From contig NZ_CP144918.1 of the NCBI RefSeq assembly GCF_036700095.1, forward strand, positions 2,233,001 to 2,297,000: 64,000 nt of DNA, written 5' to 3'. The stretch is from Pelagerythrobacter marensis (GTDB lineage Bacteria; Pseudomonadota; Alphaproteobacteria; Sphingomonadales; Sphingomonadaceae). A program made the translations under genes and the position numbers. The notes beneath the pieces were generated by a model. The model did not search any database and was not told the origin of the DNA. It saw nothing but the letters and a program-made list of their open reading frames with translations. Position 1 is the first letter of the stretch. Every line of letters starts with the position of its first letter. Shown piece by piece: positions 9,895 through 20,015 of this stretch.

Positions 9895-10584
9895 TTACTC
9901 CACCCACTTCATCACCCCGCCGGCGAACGGGGTCCACCACCCGGTGCGCACGCCGGCGGCGGCCAGGGTGTCGCTCGTCCACTGGTTGCAGGTATTGCCC
10001 AGGTGGTAAGTGCCGGGCGCGTCGTAGAACACGTCCCAGTCCGCATATCCGCGATAGACCTCGCGGCGTTCCGGGGGGAGGACCTGCGTTTCGATCCGGC
10101 GGACAAGGCGGGCATATTCTTCCGGGCGCAGACGCAGCACGCGGGCATTCTCGCCGGGGGCGGGGCGGACGTAGTGGGCGACGTGGAGCAGCCCGTCGCC
10201 GCCGACGATTGCTCCGACGGCGGTTGCCGGCGAAAGGTCGGCCCACGTCGGCGTGTGAAGGAACACCTCGCGTTCGCCCCAACTGACCGAGACGTGGGTA
10301 TAGGGCCGCTTGGCGGCCCCCGCGGGCAGATCGCCGGCGGGAAAATCGCGTCGCCAGTCCTTCTGCGCCGACACCAGCGGCATGACGATCGCGGTATGGA
10401 TTCCGTTCGCTTCTACCATGATGTCGATACCGCGGGCAGGCTCGCGCCAGTCGGCGTTTCGCGGGATCGACGAGCCGACCCAGGCGGCAAGCATGAACAG
10501 CCCGATGGCGAGCGCGAGCCAGGCAAACGCCCGGCCCGCCCACCGCGCCAGGCGCTTCAGGATTGCAGGCGCTTGCGCAGCCAC
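9895..10584 (-). CDS. DUF2459/TIGR02117-like membrane-anchored protein
   Basis: A 229-residue protein with one N-terminal membrane segment (FAWLALAIGLFMLAAWVG) and a periplasmic body containing GIHTAIVMP, WGEREVFL, and a late NTCNQWTSDTLAAAG segment with cysteine and asparagine. I recognise the pattern as the TIGR02117/DUF2459 family, whose function is not established; the cysteine context resembles papain-like enzymes. The GTG at 10584 is the best in-frame start that keeps the membrane segment; it lies inside the end of prmA, a 28-base overlap, so the two are probably translated together. Confidence 0.65.
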   Translation of the reverse strand: MAAQAPAILKRLARWAGRAFAWLALAIGLFMLAAWVGSSIPRNADWREPARGIDIMVEANGIHTAIVMPLVSAQKDWRRDFPAGDLPAGAAKRPYTHVSVSWGEREVFLHTPTWADLSPATAVGAIVGGDGLLHVAHYVRPAPGENARVLRLRPEEYARLVRRIETQVLPPERREVYRGYADWDVFYDAPGTYHLGNTCNQWTSDTLAAAGVRTGWWTPFAGGVMKWVE

Positions 10585-15865: not shown

Positions 15866-16747
15866 ATGGCCGGAAAGGCTGTCGCTCTGGCGGTCGCCTG
15901 TTCGATCGCCGCGCTCCCGCTCGCGGGCTGCACGGCCGGGGGACAGGCGCCACCGGCGCACCTGGGGCTCGATCCGTTCTATGTCCGGTATCGCGATGCC
16001 GGTGGGATCGCGGTCGTCTCCTCCGCACGGGTGGAGAGCGAAGCCCTGGCGAAGGCGTCGCGGATGATCGACGATATGCTCGCCCACCGCCCCGACCTGC
16101 GCGCCGTGCTGTCGCAGCGCGGTTACCGCGTCGCCATCATGGCGGAGAGCGAAGCGATTACCGACCTTCCCGAAAACGCGCACTGGACGAAGCCGGCAAA
16201 GGACGATCCACGCCTCACGCGCTGCGAACGCAAGCATTACGAGGAACGGATCGGGCGGTTGTCGGACCGCGAATACTGGAACGCCCGGGCGCGGGGAATC
16301 GGGGGCAGGTTCACCGTCGCGGCGGAGGAGGACGTGCTGGGCAGGCCGACCAGCCGCTATTACGGCGAGACCATTCTGGTCCACGAATTCGCCCACAACG
16401 TGCTCGACGCGATCCAGGCGGCCGATCCCGCGCTCTATGGCCAAATCGAGCAGGCCTATGCCGCGGCGCTCGACGAAGGGCTGTGGAAGGACGAATACGC
16501 CAGCACCACGGTGCAGGAATACTGGGCCGAAGGCACGCAGTTCTGGTTCAATTCCAATCGCCTCGCCGTGTTCGACGGGCGGCGGATTTTGAACCATGCG
16601 GATCTGGCGGCATACGATCCGCGCCTGGCCGCGGCGCTCGCCCAGGCCTATGGCAAGCGGCACCGTCTCGCCGCCGATCCGTTTTACCGCCATCCGGCCC
16701 GCGTGCCGCCCGGGCCGATCCCGGAGAACACTGCGGAAGTGTGCTAG
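15866..16747 (+). CDS. Putative zinc metallopeptidase lipoprotein
   Basis: A 293-residue protein with a signal ending in lipobox LPLAGC (Cys22). In the second half, VHEFAHNVLD (HEFAH at residues 173-177) is a canonical HExxH zinc motif, and EYWAEGTQFWF (E222) about 45 residues later supplies a plausible third ligand, the layout of gluzincin peptidases. TVQEYWAEG resembles the lethal-factor-like group, but I cannot assign a named family. It is probably attached to the outer membrane. Its stop overlaps the stop-side of the converging thioesterase gene by four bases. Confidence 0.65.
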   Translation: MAGKAVALAVACSIAALPLAGCTAGGQAPPAHLGLDPFYVRYRDAGGIAVVSSARVESEALAKASRMIDDMLAHRPDLRAVLSQRGYRVAIMAESEAITDLPENAHWTKPAKDDPRLTRCERKHYEERIGRLSDREYWNARARGIGGRFTVAAEEDVLGRPTSRYYGETILVHEFAHNVLDAIQAADPALYGQIEQAYAAALDEGLWKDEYASTTVQEYWAEGTQFWFNSNRLAVFDGRRILNHADLAAYDPRLAAALAQAYGKRHRLAADPFYRHPARVPPGPIPENTAEVC

Positions 16748-17184
16748 GCTTCGGTTCCGGCGTCCCCGGTGCCGGCCATCAGGACGTTCATCACGGCGGT
16801 CGCGACCGGGCGCGATCGGTCGTCCTGCCAGGCCTCGACCTCGATATGGGCATTCCGCCGGCCCAGACGCAGCACCCGGCCGCGCGCATAAGTCGGCTTG
16901 CTCTTGGCAGCGCTGAGAAACTGCACGGTGACGTTGATCGGCTTCAGCCGGTGTTCGCGCCCTTCGCGGGCAAGTTGCGCCCGCAAGGCGGCATAGCCGG
17001 CGTTTTCCAGCAATCCGCTGGTCGCTCCGCCGTGAAATACGGTGGGACGGCCCTCGACGATCTCGCCGAAGGGGATGACGAGAACCGGGCTGCCGTCTTC
17101 CATCGCATCGATCGCGATACCCAGCGAGCGAGCATAGGCGGGAAGCTCGCGCTCCAGCGCGGAGATCGCGGGCTCGCGGGTCAT
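16744..17184 (-). CDS. PaaI-family hotdog thioesterase (downstream copy)
   Basis: A 146-residue hotdog-fold protein. The pattern GRPTVFHGGATSGLLENAGYAA matches the PaaI-type active site (a glycine-rich helix after the histidine), with a later TVQFLSAAKS strand. Such enzymes hydrolyse acyl-CoA or aromatic acyl-CoA esters. ATG 17184 is preceded by GGAGGAG and overlaps the stop of the upstream thioesterase gene by four bases, so the two are translated as a pair and may form a heteromer. Confidence 0.8.
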   Translation of the reverse strand: MTREPAISALERELPAYARSLGIAIDAMEDGSPVLVIPFGEIVEGRPTVFHGGATSGLLENAGYAALRAQLAREGREHRLKPINVTVQFLSAAKSKPTYARGRVLRLGRRNAHIEVEAWQDDRSRPVATAVMNVLMAGTGDAGTEA

Positions 17185-17624
17185 CGGCTCCTCCAGGGAA
17201 TGAACATGAACACGCCCGCCACATGGGCCACCGGATCGTCGGGGTCCCCATCGTGGGCAATCCCGCGGACGAAAGCGGCGGACCGGGTGACGCGATAGCA
17301 TTCGACGCGCCCGTTCACCGCCGTGCCGGAGCGCGCGGGCCGCATGTAATCGACCCTGAGGTCGAGCGTGGCGATAGCGCGGAATGCCCTGGTGGCCGTC
17401 CAGATCGACATGCTGGCGGCCATGTCCATCAGGCTGACGATCGGCCCGGTGGCGAGGACGCCGCTGTCGGTTTCGCCCACCAGATCCTCGCGCCAGGGCA
17501 GAGCCAGCTCCACCCAGTCCGCGCCATGGGCGACATAGCGCAGGCCCAGCCAGCCGGGATGGGCGCGGCCAAGCATGAACGGCGCGGCCGTGGCGGGATC
17601 GAACGGTGGCAGGTCGTCGGCCAT
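17181..17624 (-). CDS. PaaI-family hotdog thioesterase (upstream copy)
   Basis: A 147-residue hotdog-fold protein with GVLATGPIVSLMDMAASMSIW, the central helix that carries the catalytic acidic residue in PaaI-like enzymes, and LRVDYMRPARSGTAV, the strand pair that follows. The start is set at MADDLPPFD; the frame extends ten codons further without an obvious ribosome site. It is the first gene of a two-gene leftward unit and is divergent from the peptide gene at 17743. Confidence 0.78.
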   Translation of the reverse strand: MADDLPPFDPATAAPFMLGRAHPGWLGLRYVAHGADWVELALPWREDLVGETDSGVLATGPIVSLMDMAASMSIWTATRAFRAIATLDLRVDYMRPARSGTAVNGRVECYRVTRSAAFVRGIAHDGDPDDPVAHVAGVFMFIPWRSR

Positions 17625-17710
17625 CGCCCCGGCTCTAGGGCGGCGGGCAGGCATTGCAATGTTCTAATTCACGGTTCGTCCGGCCCGCGCTGCATCCTGG
17701 TGGAGCGGGC

Positions 17711-17746
17711 ATGACTGCGCCCGCGCAGCGGAGAAACGCACGATGA
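17711..17746 (+). other. Possible 11-codon leader ORF before the peptide gene
   Basis: ATG 17711 opens MTAPAQRRNAR and stops at TGA 17744-17746, whose bases overlap the ATG of the 55-residue peptide (ATGA). GGAG lies six bases before this ATG, a better site than the peptide's own. It could couple translation into the peptide gene or be chance; nothing else supports it. Confidence 0.3.
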
Positions 17747-17910
17747 ACTTTCCGAAGATCGATATTGCTTCCTTGCCCGCGCTCGAGACCGCGGCGGGCA
17801 TGTTCGGCAGCCTTTCGGATGCGGCAACCGCCGCTTCGGACGACCGGGCCGTGATCATCATGGTCTATCTCTACGAAACCTCGTCGACATTGCCCGATCT
17901 GCTGTTCTGA
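17743..17910 (+). CDS. Small peptide, 55 residues, first gene of a three-gene unit of unknown function
   Basis: Too short for many gene finders but well supported by context: it ends 10 bases before the next gene, has GGAG 9 bases before its ATG and codon use like its neighbours. The peptide starts MNFPKIDIASLPALE, has an acidic serine/alanine middle (SDAATAASDDR), a hydrophobic VIIMVYLY stretch and the tail TSSTLPDLLF. It has no cysteine, no double-glycine leader cleavage site and no obvious signal peptide. I recognise no family. It could be a ribosomally made precursor peptide acted on by the two following proteins, or a small structural partner of them. Confidence 0.6.
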   Translation: MNFPKIDIASLPALETAAGMFGSLSDAATAASDDRAVIIMVYLYETSSTLPDLLF

Positions 17911-17920
17911 GGTCCGGCGG

Positions 17921-18892
17921 ATGCAGGTCGACCGTTCGATTTGCGCCCTGCGCGGCGATCGCGTCGCCCAGCGCAGGGCGCAATCCGCCGTCGAGGCCGC
18001 CACCGGAGGCTGGCGCGCGTCGCCCCCGGTGGCGGCTGCGCTCGACGAACTGGCGCCCTATGGCGAGGGCGCCGCGCTGGGCGACTGTCCCCGGTTGCAG
18101 GCGCTGGTGCGCGATCCGGCCGGGGCCGGCGGGTTCGTGGGCACCCTGATCGCGCCGATGGTGCAGGCGCTGGGGCGGCAATGGCTGGCTCAGGTGCCGT
18201 TCCGGCATCAAGTCGCCGAAGGGATGACAACGCTGCAACTCGCGCGGGCAGGCCGGGCGACATTGTCGCTTGTCCGCTACGAGCCAGCGGCACGACCGCG
18301 ACCGGCCGTCACCGTCGGTTTCGCAGACGGGGAACGGCATGAAATCTGCCTGACGGGCGCGGCCTCTGCCCGGCGCGTTTCGGTCAAGGGAACGCATGGC
18401 GACACGGTGGATCTGGCCTTCGCGCCGCTCGCGCTGTTCCCGGGCCGCAGGCTCCGCTTCGCCGCGCGGCGTGCGACCAAGCTGGTCGATGGCGCGCACG
18501 GCGGGCTCGTGCTCCTGCGCCTCGCGCGGCAGGCGCGCAGGCCGCTGCCAAGCCTGGAGTACCGGCTCGCCGACGGGGTGCTGGTCCATCGCGCAGCGGG
18601 CGATGCGCGCGAAAGCCGGGCGGAACTGATGCTGGCCCTGCTCGGCCGGATGGAACGGCGCGACGCCGCCCGTGCGATCGAGGCGGTCCTGCGCCGTGGC
18701 AGCGACAGCTTGCGCTGGCAGGCGCTGCGCGAATATCTGGCGCTGGACAGCGGGGCCGGGTTCGATGCCTTGTCGCGGATCGCCGACAACGCGGCGGACC
18801 CGCTGGCGAGCGCGGCGGACGCGCTGCGCCGCGACCTGCTCGACCGCTATCCGCAGCTCCGATCCGCCCGGGCGGCGCCATGCCCTGCATAA
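17921..18892 (+). CDS. Unknown protein of the peptide-linked unit (HEAT-like C-terminus)
   Basis: A 323-residue protein I cannot assign. It is arginine- and alanine-rich and has no membrane segment or signal. The first half contains FRHQVAEGMTTLQLARAG and a strand-rich part around GERHEICLTG. The last 80 residues (ERRDAARAIEAVLRRG, then LRWQALREYLALDSGAGFDA) look like paired helices of an armadillo/HEAT type. GAGG overlaps the stop of the peptide gene and precedes ATG 17921, and the 3' end overlaps the next gene by 13 bases, so all three genes are coupled. Confidence 0.7.
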   Translation: MQVDRSICALRGDRVAQRRAQSAVEAATGGWRASPPVAAALDELAPYGEGAALGDCPRLQALVRDPAGAGGFVGTLIAPMVQALGRQWLAQVPFRHQVAEGMTTLQLARAGRATLSLVRYEPAARPRPAVTVGFADGERHEICLTGAASARRVSVKGTHGDTVDLAFAPLALFPGRRLRFAARRATKLVDGAHGGLVLLRLARQARRPLPSLEYRLADGVLVHRAAGDARESRAELMLALLGRMERRDAARAIEAVLRRGSDSLRWQALREYLALDSGAGFDALSRIADNAADPLASAADALRRDLLDRYPQLRSARAAPCPA

Positions 18893-19833
18893 TCGAATGC
18901 GGCGATCCGCCGCCCGCCACGCTGGATCGGACCGTCGATGCGCTGGACGAACGGGGGTTCGATCCGCGCGACGCGGCAAGCCGCGACCATGCGGCGCGGT
19001 GGCTGGCGCGCCTGGGCCGAAACCGTGAATTCCTGGGCGATCTGATGATCGACCGGTTGGCGGAGCAGCACGCGGACGAGAGCGCCGATGCGGGCTATGG
19101 GCCGCAGGCGATCATGCTCTCGAAACCGCGCGGCGGCTATTTTCTGCGCGCCAACCTGTGGCCGGCCAGCAACGACCACGCCTGTCGCACCAGCGGCGCG
19201 CAGGCCTTCGTCTACGACCTGCCGCACGATCACAATTTCGATTTCCTGACTGTCGGTTATTTCGGCCCCGGCTATATCAGCGACTATTACGAATACGATT
19301 ATCGCGCGGTTGCGGGCTGGCGGGGGGAGAAGGCCGGCTTGCGCTTCGTCGAGCGCAGCATCCTGTCGCCGGGCAGGATGCTGCACTATCGGGCCCATCG
19401 CGACGTCCACCGCCAGTTGCCGCCGGCCAGCCTTTCGGTGTCGCTCAATATCGTGGCCGCCGATCCGGCCTGCGGTTGGTTCGACCAGTACGCCTTCGAC
19501 CTCCGCGCCGATTGCGTGCGCCGTGTCCTCAACCCCGGTTCGACCGAAGCTTTCCTGCGTATCGCCGTGGGGCTGGGCGGGGCGGAAGCGATCGACCTTG
19601 CCGAACGGTTCGGGCGTTCCCATCCCAGCGACCGCCTTCGCCTCGCCTGTTTCGAAGCGCGCGCTGGCCTCGCCGCCTCGCAGCAAGCGGCCGACGAAAT
19701 CTGGCGCGAGGCGGAACGATCGGGCAGCCGGCTCGTCGCGGCAGAAGCGCGATTGCGGCGCGCGGCATCGGCCCCTTCGGCAGGGTCGAATGCGGATCGT
19801 CCCGCTGGGCCTTCCAAGCGGGCCGACGCTTGA
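18880..19833 (+). CDS. Cupin-like protein of the peptide-linked unit
   Basis: A 317-residue protein. PHDHNFDFLTVGYFGPGY (H116, H118) followed by SPGRMLHYRAHRDVHRQLP (H169, H173, H177) has the spacing of the two histidine motifs of a metal-binding cupin, such as the cysteine-dioxygenase-like branch. The last 90 residues are helical and repeat-like. It could be an iron-dependent oxygenase that modifies the peptide encoded two genes earlier, but this is inference from motif spacing and position. It starts inside the end of the preceding gene. No characterised family comes to mind. Confidence 0.6.
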   Translation: MPCIIECGDPPPATLDRTVDALDERGFDPRDAASRDHAARWLARLGRNREFLGDLMIDRLAEQHADESADAGYGPQAIMLSKPRGGYFLRANLWPASNDHACRTSGAQAFVYDLPHDHNFDFLTVGYFGPGYISDYYEYDYRAVAGWRGEKAGLRFVERSILSPGRMLHYRAHRDVHRQLPPASLSVSLNIVAADPACGWFDQYAFDLRADCVRRVLNPGSTEAFLRIAVGLGGAEAIDLAERFGRSHPSDRLRLACFEARAGLAASQQAADEIWREAERSGSRLVAAEARLRRAASAPSAGSNADRPAGPSKRADA

Positions 19834-19927: not shown

Positions 19928-20015
19928 TGTCATCCCCGCGGAAGCGGAGACCCGGGGGCAGTGGCCGTTCCGGTCGTGGATTCCCGCGTCCGCGGCAATG
20001 ACGGGAAAATCGCTG
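19928..20015. repeat. Intergenic palindromic repeat
   Basis: Imperfect inverted arms of about 28 bases, left near 19929-19956 (GTCATCCCCGCGGAAGCGG...) and right near 19978-20014 (...CCGCGGCAATGACGGG), form one long hairpin between the cupin-like gene and the end of cmk. It belongs to the common class that starts GTCATCCCCGC. It may stop or stabilise transcripts from both sides. Confidence 0.65.

Follow-up and report, generated by a model that had tools for sequence, protein, structure and literature searches.

A Conserved Peptide Gene beside Two Predicted Cupin-Fold Proteins in Pelagerythrobacter marensis: A Likely RiPP-Type System

Introduction

Three genes follow each other closely on one strand of the Pelagerythrobacter marensis genome (contig NZ_CP144918.1), a 55-codon gene (A) and the genes for proteins of 323 (B) and 317 residues (C). 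They lie in a stretch of 64,000 nucleotides (positions 2,233,001 to 2,297,000 of the contig), which is called the window hereafter. The question raised by this locus is what a peptide of 55 residues does beside two larger proteins. A preliminary description of the window had proposed a peptide-modification (RiPP-like) or peptide-chaperone system, and had placed none of the three products in a described family. The latter point held in Pfam and NCBIfam, where no match was obtained for A or B and no relevant match for C; no described family emerged either for 25 C proteins in both collections or for 25 B proteins in Pfam. PADLOC gave no match for the two B and two C proteins submitted. No description of A-B-C was found in the open-licence literature, which does not imply absence from print, nor was any paper on a RiPP combining a cysteine dioxygenase with a precursor peptide found there; neither cysteine dioxygenase nor thiol dioxygenase occurred among the matches listed in the open-licence search.

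Gene Order and Conservation of the A-B-C Locus

The features of the locus, in window coordinates, are the following.

16744..17301, − strand: TE1, second hotdog thioesterase, conserved neighbour
17181..17654, − strand: TE2, PaaI-type (hotdog) thioesterase, Pfam 4HBT, divergent conserved neighbour
17655..17742, no strand: intergenic gap of 88 bases from TE2 to the divergent gene A, presumably holding the A-B-C promoter
17743..17910, + strand: gene A, putative precursor peptide of 55 residues, conserved frame with a ribosome-binding-like GGAG upstream
17743-17811, + strand: leader-like part of A (residues 1-23), with a variable linker after it
17839-17877, + strand: hydrophobic/acidic core of A (residues 33-45), with a variable tail after it
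17921..18892, + strand: gene B, 323 residues, metal-free paralogue of C by profile comparison, predicted thiol-dioxygenase-type cupin with a HEAT-like C-terminal part
18880..19833, + strand: gene C, 317 residues, predicted three-histidine cupin of the thiol-dioxygenase fold, putative Fe(II) oxygenase
19147..19149, + strand: codon of R90 of C, arginine invariant in two of three alignments and placed 26 residues before HxH
19225..19233, + strand: codons of H116-D117-H118 of C, the HxH with predicted metal ligands; H116 and H118 invariant
19408..19410, + strand: codon of H177 of C, predicted third metal ligand, invariant

The coordinates, lengths and common strand of A, B and C agreed with the preliminary description, as did the 10 bases between the stop of A and the start of B and the 13-base overlap of B with C. 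When starts were chosen by script, 75 of the 76 other loci had an A-B gap between 4 and 35 bases long, and the 13-base overlap recurred in 54 of the 75 loci in which both starts could be set. A cytidylate kinase gene lies downstream of C in convergent orientation. A consensus scan of the 88-base gap upstream of A found no sigma-70-like site, and promoter and terminator scans at the locus gave no result. In the stretch separating C from the cytidylate kinase gene, at 19928-20003, facing inverted-repeat copies were noticed which resemble a short intergenic palindromic repeat and fold only slightly better than shuffled sequences (z −1.3).

Of 397 genomes sampled from the window's family, 135 contain a long relative of C, and these are distributed over 46 of 96 genera. 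A separate search of 98 relatives matched 43 genomes, of which 20 showed a 55-residue stretch only and were left out, so that 23 with long relatives were used. In the 24 places fetched from 23 genomes of the family (window included) B preceded C without exception, and a short peptide gene preceded B in all 24, recognised by phmmer in 19 and by eye in five. In a second collection 293 places encode a relative, and a profile found A upstream of B-C in 79 of the best 80 loci, the 80th of which starts inside B at a contig end; the two sets have several contigs in common and their counts are not additive. The short gene thus kept the same neighbours, B and C, elsewhere. The locus is syntenic across genera, as read from simple gene calls after 14 of 123 rows lacking a C call had been left out; B is split over two frames in L068, L078 and L114, and C in L085. 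A-B-C is a real, widespread and apparently undescribed three-gene system.

TE2 was present in 18 of the 24 places (window included), the thioesterases being missing in the other six, and TE2 is probably not part of the A-B-C unit; a functional role for the thioesterases is possible. No gene for a leader protease or an exporter was recognised beside the window unit or at the other loci of the family whose gene order was read, and in the window B and C were the only candidate enzymes recognised next to the putative precursor. One of 58 genomes (G023, locus L209) has an A-like frame beside the thioesterases with neither B nor C in the fetched stretch, probably the leftover of a deletion.

Conserved Parts of Peptide A

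The dN/dS ratio of A was 0-0.38 in those 19 of 22 chosen locus pairs that had a finite dS, a range like that of B and C, and purifying selection acts on A. Random drift or frameshifting of the 55-codon frame among homologous loci, which would have spoken against the earlier proposal, was not what was seen: the frame is conserved. The leader-like N-terminus and the distinct hydrophobic, acidic C-terminal part noted beforehand are both conserved in the main clade, with the consensus MNLPKIDLSSLPxLDxxTGxFGS for residues 1-23 and DDxxVxIMVYxYE for residues 33-45, while linker and tail vary. P4, G22 and D34 are invariant in 41 rows. Conservation of the core within the main clade is unlike what is found in many RiPPs; taken together, the clades share no residue of the core. 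The window peptide has no leader ending in GG, and its own genome contains A once. With a main-clade peptide model no A was detected in G028, G032 and G033, where B-C is accompanied by divergent peptides, and G080 gave a weak match (E 0.004).

Over 54 loci the pairwise distances of A tracked those of B (r 0.70) and C (0.63) more than those of TE2 (0.43). For C, the correlation with TE2 (r 0.71) was nearly as high as that with B (0.73), a pattern that mostly vertical inheritance would give, so that co-inheritance alone accounts for much of the correlation.

Cysteine is absent from 75 of the 79 main-clade peptides and occurs once each in those of L067, L095, L097 and L102. Thiol oxidation of A as a general explanation was rejected because of these 75 cysteine-free peptides. 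Cysteine is found in the peptides of a separate clade of the window's family (L155-L159, L165), in which an EVGG leader is followed by a hydrophobic stretch containing this residue, and in two of the three peptides of L201, a locus from a proteobacterium of another class; in both cases thiol oxidation is possible.

Protein C, a Predicted Thiol-Dioxygenase-Type Cupin

C was modelled confidently as a thiol-dioxygenase-type cupin, and the best fold matches of the model were thiol dioxygenases. Three alignments, of 22, 71 and 25 rows, were inspected, the last being made of diverse C members down to 21% identity. H116, H118 and H177 were invariant in all three; R90 was invariant in the 22- and 25-row alignments and at least 90% conserved in the 71-row one. 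The preliminary description had proposed a metal site drawn from five histidines, H116/H118 and H169/H173/H177. All five are present at these positions and three are invariant, but H169 is not conserved, and H173 reaches at least 90% in the 22- and 71-row alignments and not in the broadest one, so that the site contracts to three predicted ligands. With its cupin fold and conserved predicted three-histidine site, the model of C has the putative cupin metal site whose absence would have counted against the earlier reading, and the view that C looks like a metal-site cupin is supported. An invariant predicted metal site argues for catalysis.

PF05995 (CDO_I) gave no match for C up to an E value of 1, for 25 members up to 0.01, or in C's own genome, and a PDB sequence search with C returned five rows with E values of 0.11 to 0.52, none of them convincing. 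The Ser-His-Tyr motif of small-molecule thiol dioxygenases is absent from C: at the corresponding position, set by eye beside T-L-H-I-Y of the CDO_I protein of L171, C reads S188-N190-V192 (Ser-Asn-aliphatic). R90 stands 26 residues before H116, and in L171 an arginine stands 27 residues before HxH, a comparison by spacing only; in CDO, Arg60 is the substrate-binding arginine before HxH. R90, invariant in C, looks like the arginine with which small-molecule thiol dioxygenases bind a carboxylate, and it fits a small-molecule substrate equally well. Residues 205-259 of C are weakly similar to 3-hydroxybutyryl-CoA dehydrogenases, in the C-terminal part of the latter; this was dropped as homology, as it was seen in one of 25 members only, and it is the source of the 20 short matches left out above.

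Relationship of Protein B to Protein C

B had been listed beforehand as an unknown protein. It remains without a described family, but it is not unrelated to its neighbour: a first, narrower profile comparison of B with C was weak (Prob 51), and a broader one gave strong evidence of homology. The B model shows the same predicted fold, so that the structure predictions proposed earlier for the 317- and 323-residue proteins both returned a thiol-dioxygenase-type cupin. No histidine is conserved in the B alignments and no metal site was found; judged from these comparisons, B is a metal-free paralogue of C. Loss of the metal site in a constant companion argues for a partner role.

Both proteins have a HEAT-like C-terminal part, a region of either model which was barely probed by the fold searches. 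The PDB sequence search with B gave nothing, and neither B nor C had a Pfam match to a PqqD-like RiPP recognition element. DUF692 was recognised neither by Pfam nor by NCBIfam in B and C of the window or in 25 C proteins, nor by Pfam in 25 B proteins.

Distribution of the B-C Pair outside the Window's Family

In a sample of the order the pair was found in 56 of 196 genomes, all of the window's own family. The class sample gave five of 385, one of them outside that family, in a second family which yielded three of 96; the phylum sample gave 15 of 398 with two outside the class, around which six of 119 and four of 118 genomes were positive. Among 72,556 plasmid records two carried the pair, from Alteromonas stellipolaris (L173) and Vibrio sp. 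ED002 (L174).

On the Alteromonas plasmid the gene order is Yip1, HlyD, MacB ATPase, MacB permease, two short peptides, B, C, ABC ATPase and ABC-2 permease. L201 has a core layout like this one: HlyD (E 2e-17), ABC ATPase, MacB permease, three tandem peptides, B, C, ABC ATPase and a sub-threshold ABC-2 frame (E 3e-4). In L202 the strand opposite to B-C carries HlyD and MacB genes ahead of the pair.

To scan 5159 frames of 14 distant loci, three peptide models were built from sequences of the window's family alone. The three L201 peptides were the top three matches of each model, with E values of 5e-10, 6e-9 and 2e-6 for the divergent-clade model (the best), 6e-6, 7e-6 and 2e-4 for the all-sequence model, and 2e-4, 2e-3 and 2e-3 for the first model. 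In L202 the best model found a peptide downstream of C and not before B (E 8e-4). The Alteromonas peptides reached a best E value of 0.24, which is not significant, and apart from L201 and L202 the candidate peptides of the distant loci had no significant match to the models. The leader pattern is thus recognised from the window's family to L201, with differing cores, and has no significant match in L173 or the other distant loci.

The distant candidates were mostly picked by eye from position, a ribosome-binding-like site and a hydrophobic end. Among them, L207 and L208 have a microcin-like GG leader, L190 and L206 the candidate core LDPVFVIPIII, and L203 a repeated FIFAA motif; L149 and L168, of the second alphaproteobacterial family, have one peptide in common. 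Neither L204, before B-C, nor L174, upstream, showed a recognisable leader-like peptide; in L174 the sole candidate is a downstream frame of 59 codons. The locus L169 is cut by its contig. Within the window's family, L154 has two tandem B-C copies and several peptides.

Some further observations were made at these loci. RND (AcrB-type) efflux genes lie upstream of peptide-B-C in both genomes of one family (L190, 5231-8428; L206, 2755-6048). The FIFAA motif of L203 belongs to a 63-codon frame at 10002-10193 which adjoins B-C and holds two FIFAA[RQ] copies, possibly a two-core precursor. The 59-codon frame of L174 (12392-12571) directly follows a shortened B and C, and the plasmid also carries restriction-modification genes. 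A 293-residue protein is encoded after B-C in L207 (10638-11516; no Pfam match for this copy) and in its L208 counterpart, and further upstream in L208 an NRPS-like frame was seen by eye.

Proposed Function and Alternative Explanations

Leader-bearing hydrophobic peptides, multiplied beside a constant protein pair and in places accompanied by exporters, have the look of a RiPP system, and a RiPP-type function of A-B-C is likely. A short conserved precursor gene stands next to B-C, and the pair would modify its product. We regard A-B-C as probably a minimal system of this type, in which C oxidises the core and B is its metal-free, leader-holding heterodimer partner. A would be the precursor, with residues of about 1-23 as recognition leader and the hydrophobic stretch with conserved acidic residues, of about 33-45, as core. 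C would be a mononuclear Fe(II), three-histidine oxygenase using O2 to oxidise the core, and B, its metal site lost, would pair with C and hold the leader; this division of tasks is inferred by analogy with MbnA-MbnB-MbnC. In the window's family the product would be a conserved and usually single peptide, probably with a physiological role, which either stays inside the cell or leaves it by general export routes. Certain bacteria of another class would use this pair to make exported, diversified peptides. The earlier RiPP-like proposal is strengthened by genes that stay together, by the cupin-like C and by relatives with several precursors per pair, GG-type leaders and exporter genes; it is weakened by the window unit itself, beside which neither exporter nor protease was recognised.

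That weakness gives weight to a different view of A, in which it is a small subunit of a B-C oxygenase acting on a small molecule, serves a structural or regulatory purpose, such as that of a lid or a beta-strand donor, and stays unmodified. The single A copy of the genome and the invariance of R90 suit such a subunit, R90 resembling the substrate-binding arginine of small-molecule thiol dioxygenases, which according to PMC8503633 is absent from the peptide-oxidising ADO. Since no gene for export or cleavage is seen beside the unit, and since both the chromosomal place and the core of the peptide are conserved in the main clade, this explanation stays serious. A subunit would hardly be expected in several dissimilar forms per B-C pair, as in L201, L173 and L154, or with GG-type leaders and exporter genes as found elsewhere, and the C-terminal half of the peptide varies between clades whereas the site of C does not; on balance we think it unlikely.

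More improbable is that the peptides are unmodified and bacteriocin-like, B and C being chaperone or immunity proteins and not enzymes. The HEAT-like repeats in B would be compatible with this, and so would the distant relatives, in which GG leaders, clusters with two types of peptide, and transporters of the HlyD/MacB and ABC-2 kinds are found, but HxH...H and R90, invariant in 25 C members, point to catalysis, and no exporter was recognised next to the window unit. Finally, that A is a translated leader (an attenuator-type upstream frame) controlling B-C by coupling, its peptide having no role, would agree with the position of A 10 bases before B and with the similarly short gaps elsewhere, but is barely credible in view of its conservation at the amino-acid level (dN/dS 0-0.38), the tandem peptides of L201 and the L202 peptide frame downstream of C.

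Comparison with Known Systems

Among characterised proteins, the thiol dioxygenases (cysteine, 3-mercaptopropionate and mercaptosuccinate dioxygenases, ADO and the plant cysteine oxidases) come nearest to C, which is predicted to have the same cupin fold and three histidine ligands. C differs from them in having no CDO_I match, a Ser-Asn-aliphatic sequence (by eye) in place of the Ser-His-Tyr motif described for the small-molecule enzymes in PMC10966181, an extra HEAT-like C-terminal part, a metal-free partner, and a peptide gene alongside which lacks cysteine codons in most main-clade loci (75 of 79).

The layout of precursor, iron oxidase and partner is shared with the MNIO (DUF692) systems and the methanobactin proteins MbnA-MbnB-MbnC; according to PMC12141560 the partner MbnC binds the MbnA leader, and the oxidase MbnB acts as a heterodimer with it. 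A-B-C differs in having no DUF692 match, a predicted mononuclear cupin, and a partner, B, which is by profile comparison a paralogue of the enzyme C. Another oxygenase of cupin fold whose substrate is a ribosomal peptide is PbsQ of the biphenomycin-like RiPPs; PMC12257519 describes it as a relative of a JmjC-type protein that acts later than other enzymes, whereas in the window no candidate enzyme other than the cupin pair was recognised beside the precursor. In the part available of PMC12710340, on RiPP recognition elements, the word cupin does not occur. With the double-glycine-leader bacteriocins and microcins the distant relatives share GG leaders and exporter genes, but the window peptide has no GG leader and no exporter was recognised beside it.

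Conclusions

The evidence leaves evenly balanced the wider proposal that A-B-C represents a new RiPP class, present in at least two proteobacterial classes, in which a heterodimer of active and metal-free proteins of the thiol-dioxygenase fold oxidises mostly thiol-free hydrophobic cores, with a largely vertically inherited, modified housekeeping peptide in the window's family. If this is true, a fold known for small thiols and N-terminal cysteines would have been recruited, as an active/inactive pair, for peptides that mostly lack thiols, and a minimal two-protein machine would carry out new peptide chemistry. The exporter-associated versions in distant bacteria, of which one is plasmid-borne, would then be leads to new peptide natural products missed by the family models searched. 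In the window's own family, a large environmental one in which about a third of the genomes examined have C relatives (135 of 397), the peptide shows the conservation of a housekeeping product, and the question arises of its role.
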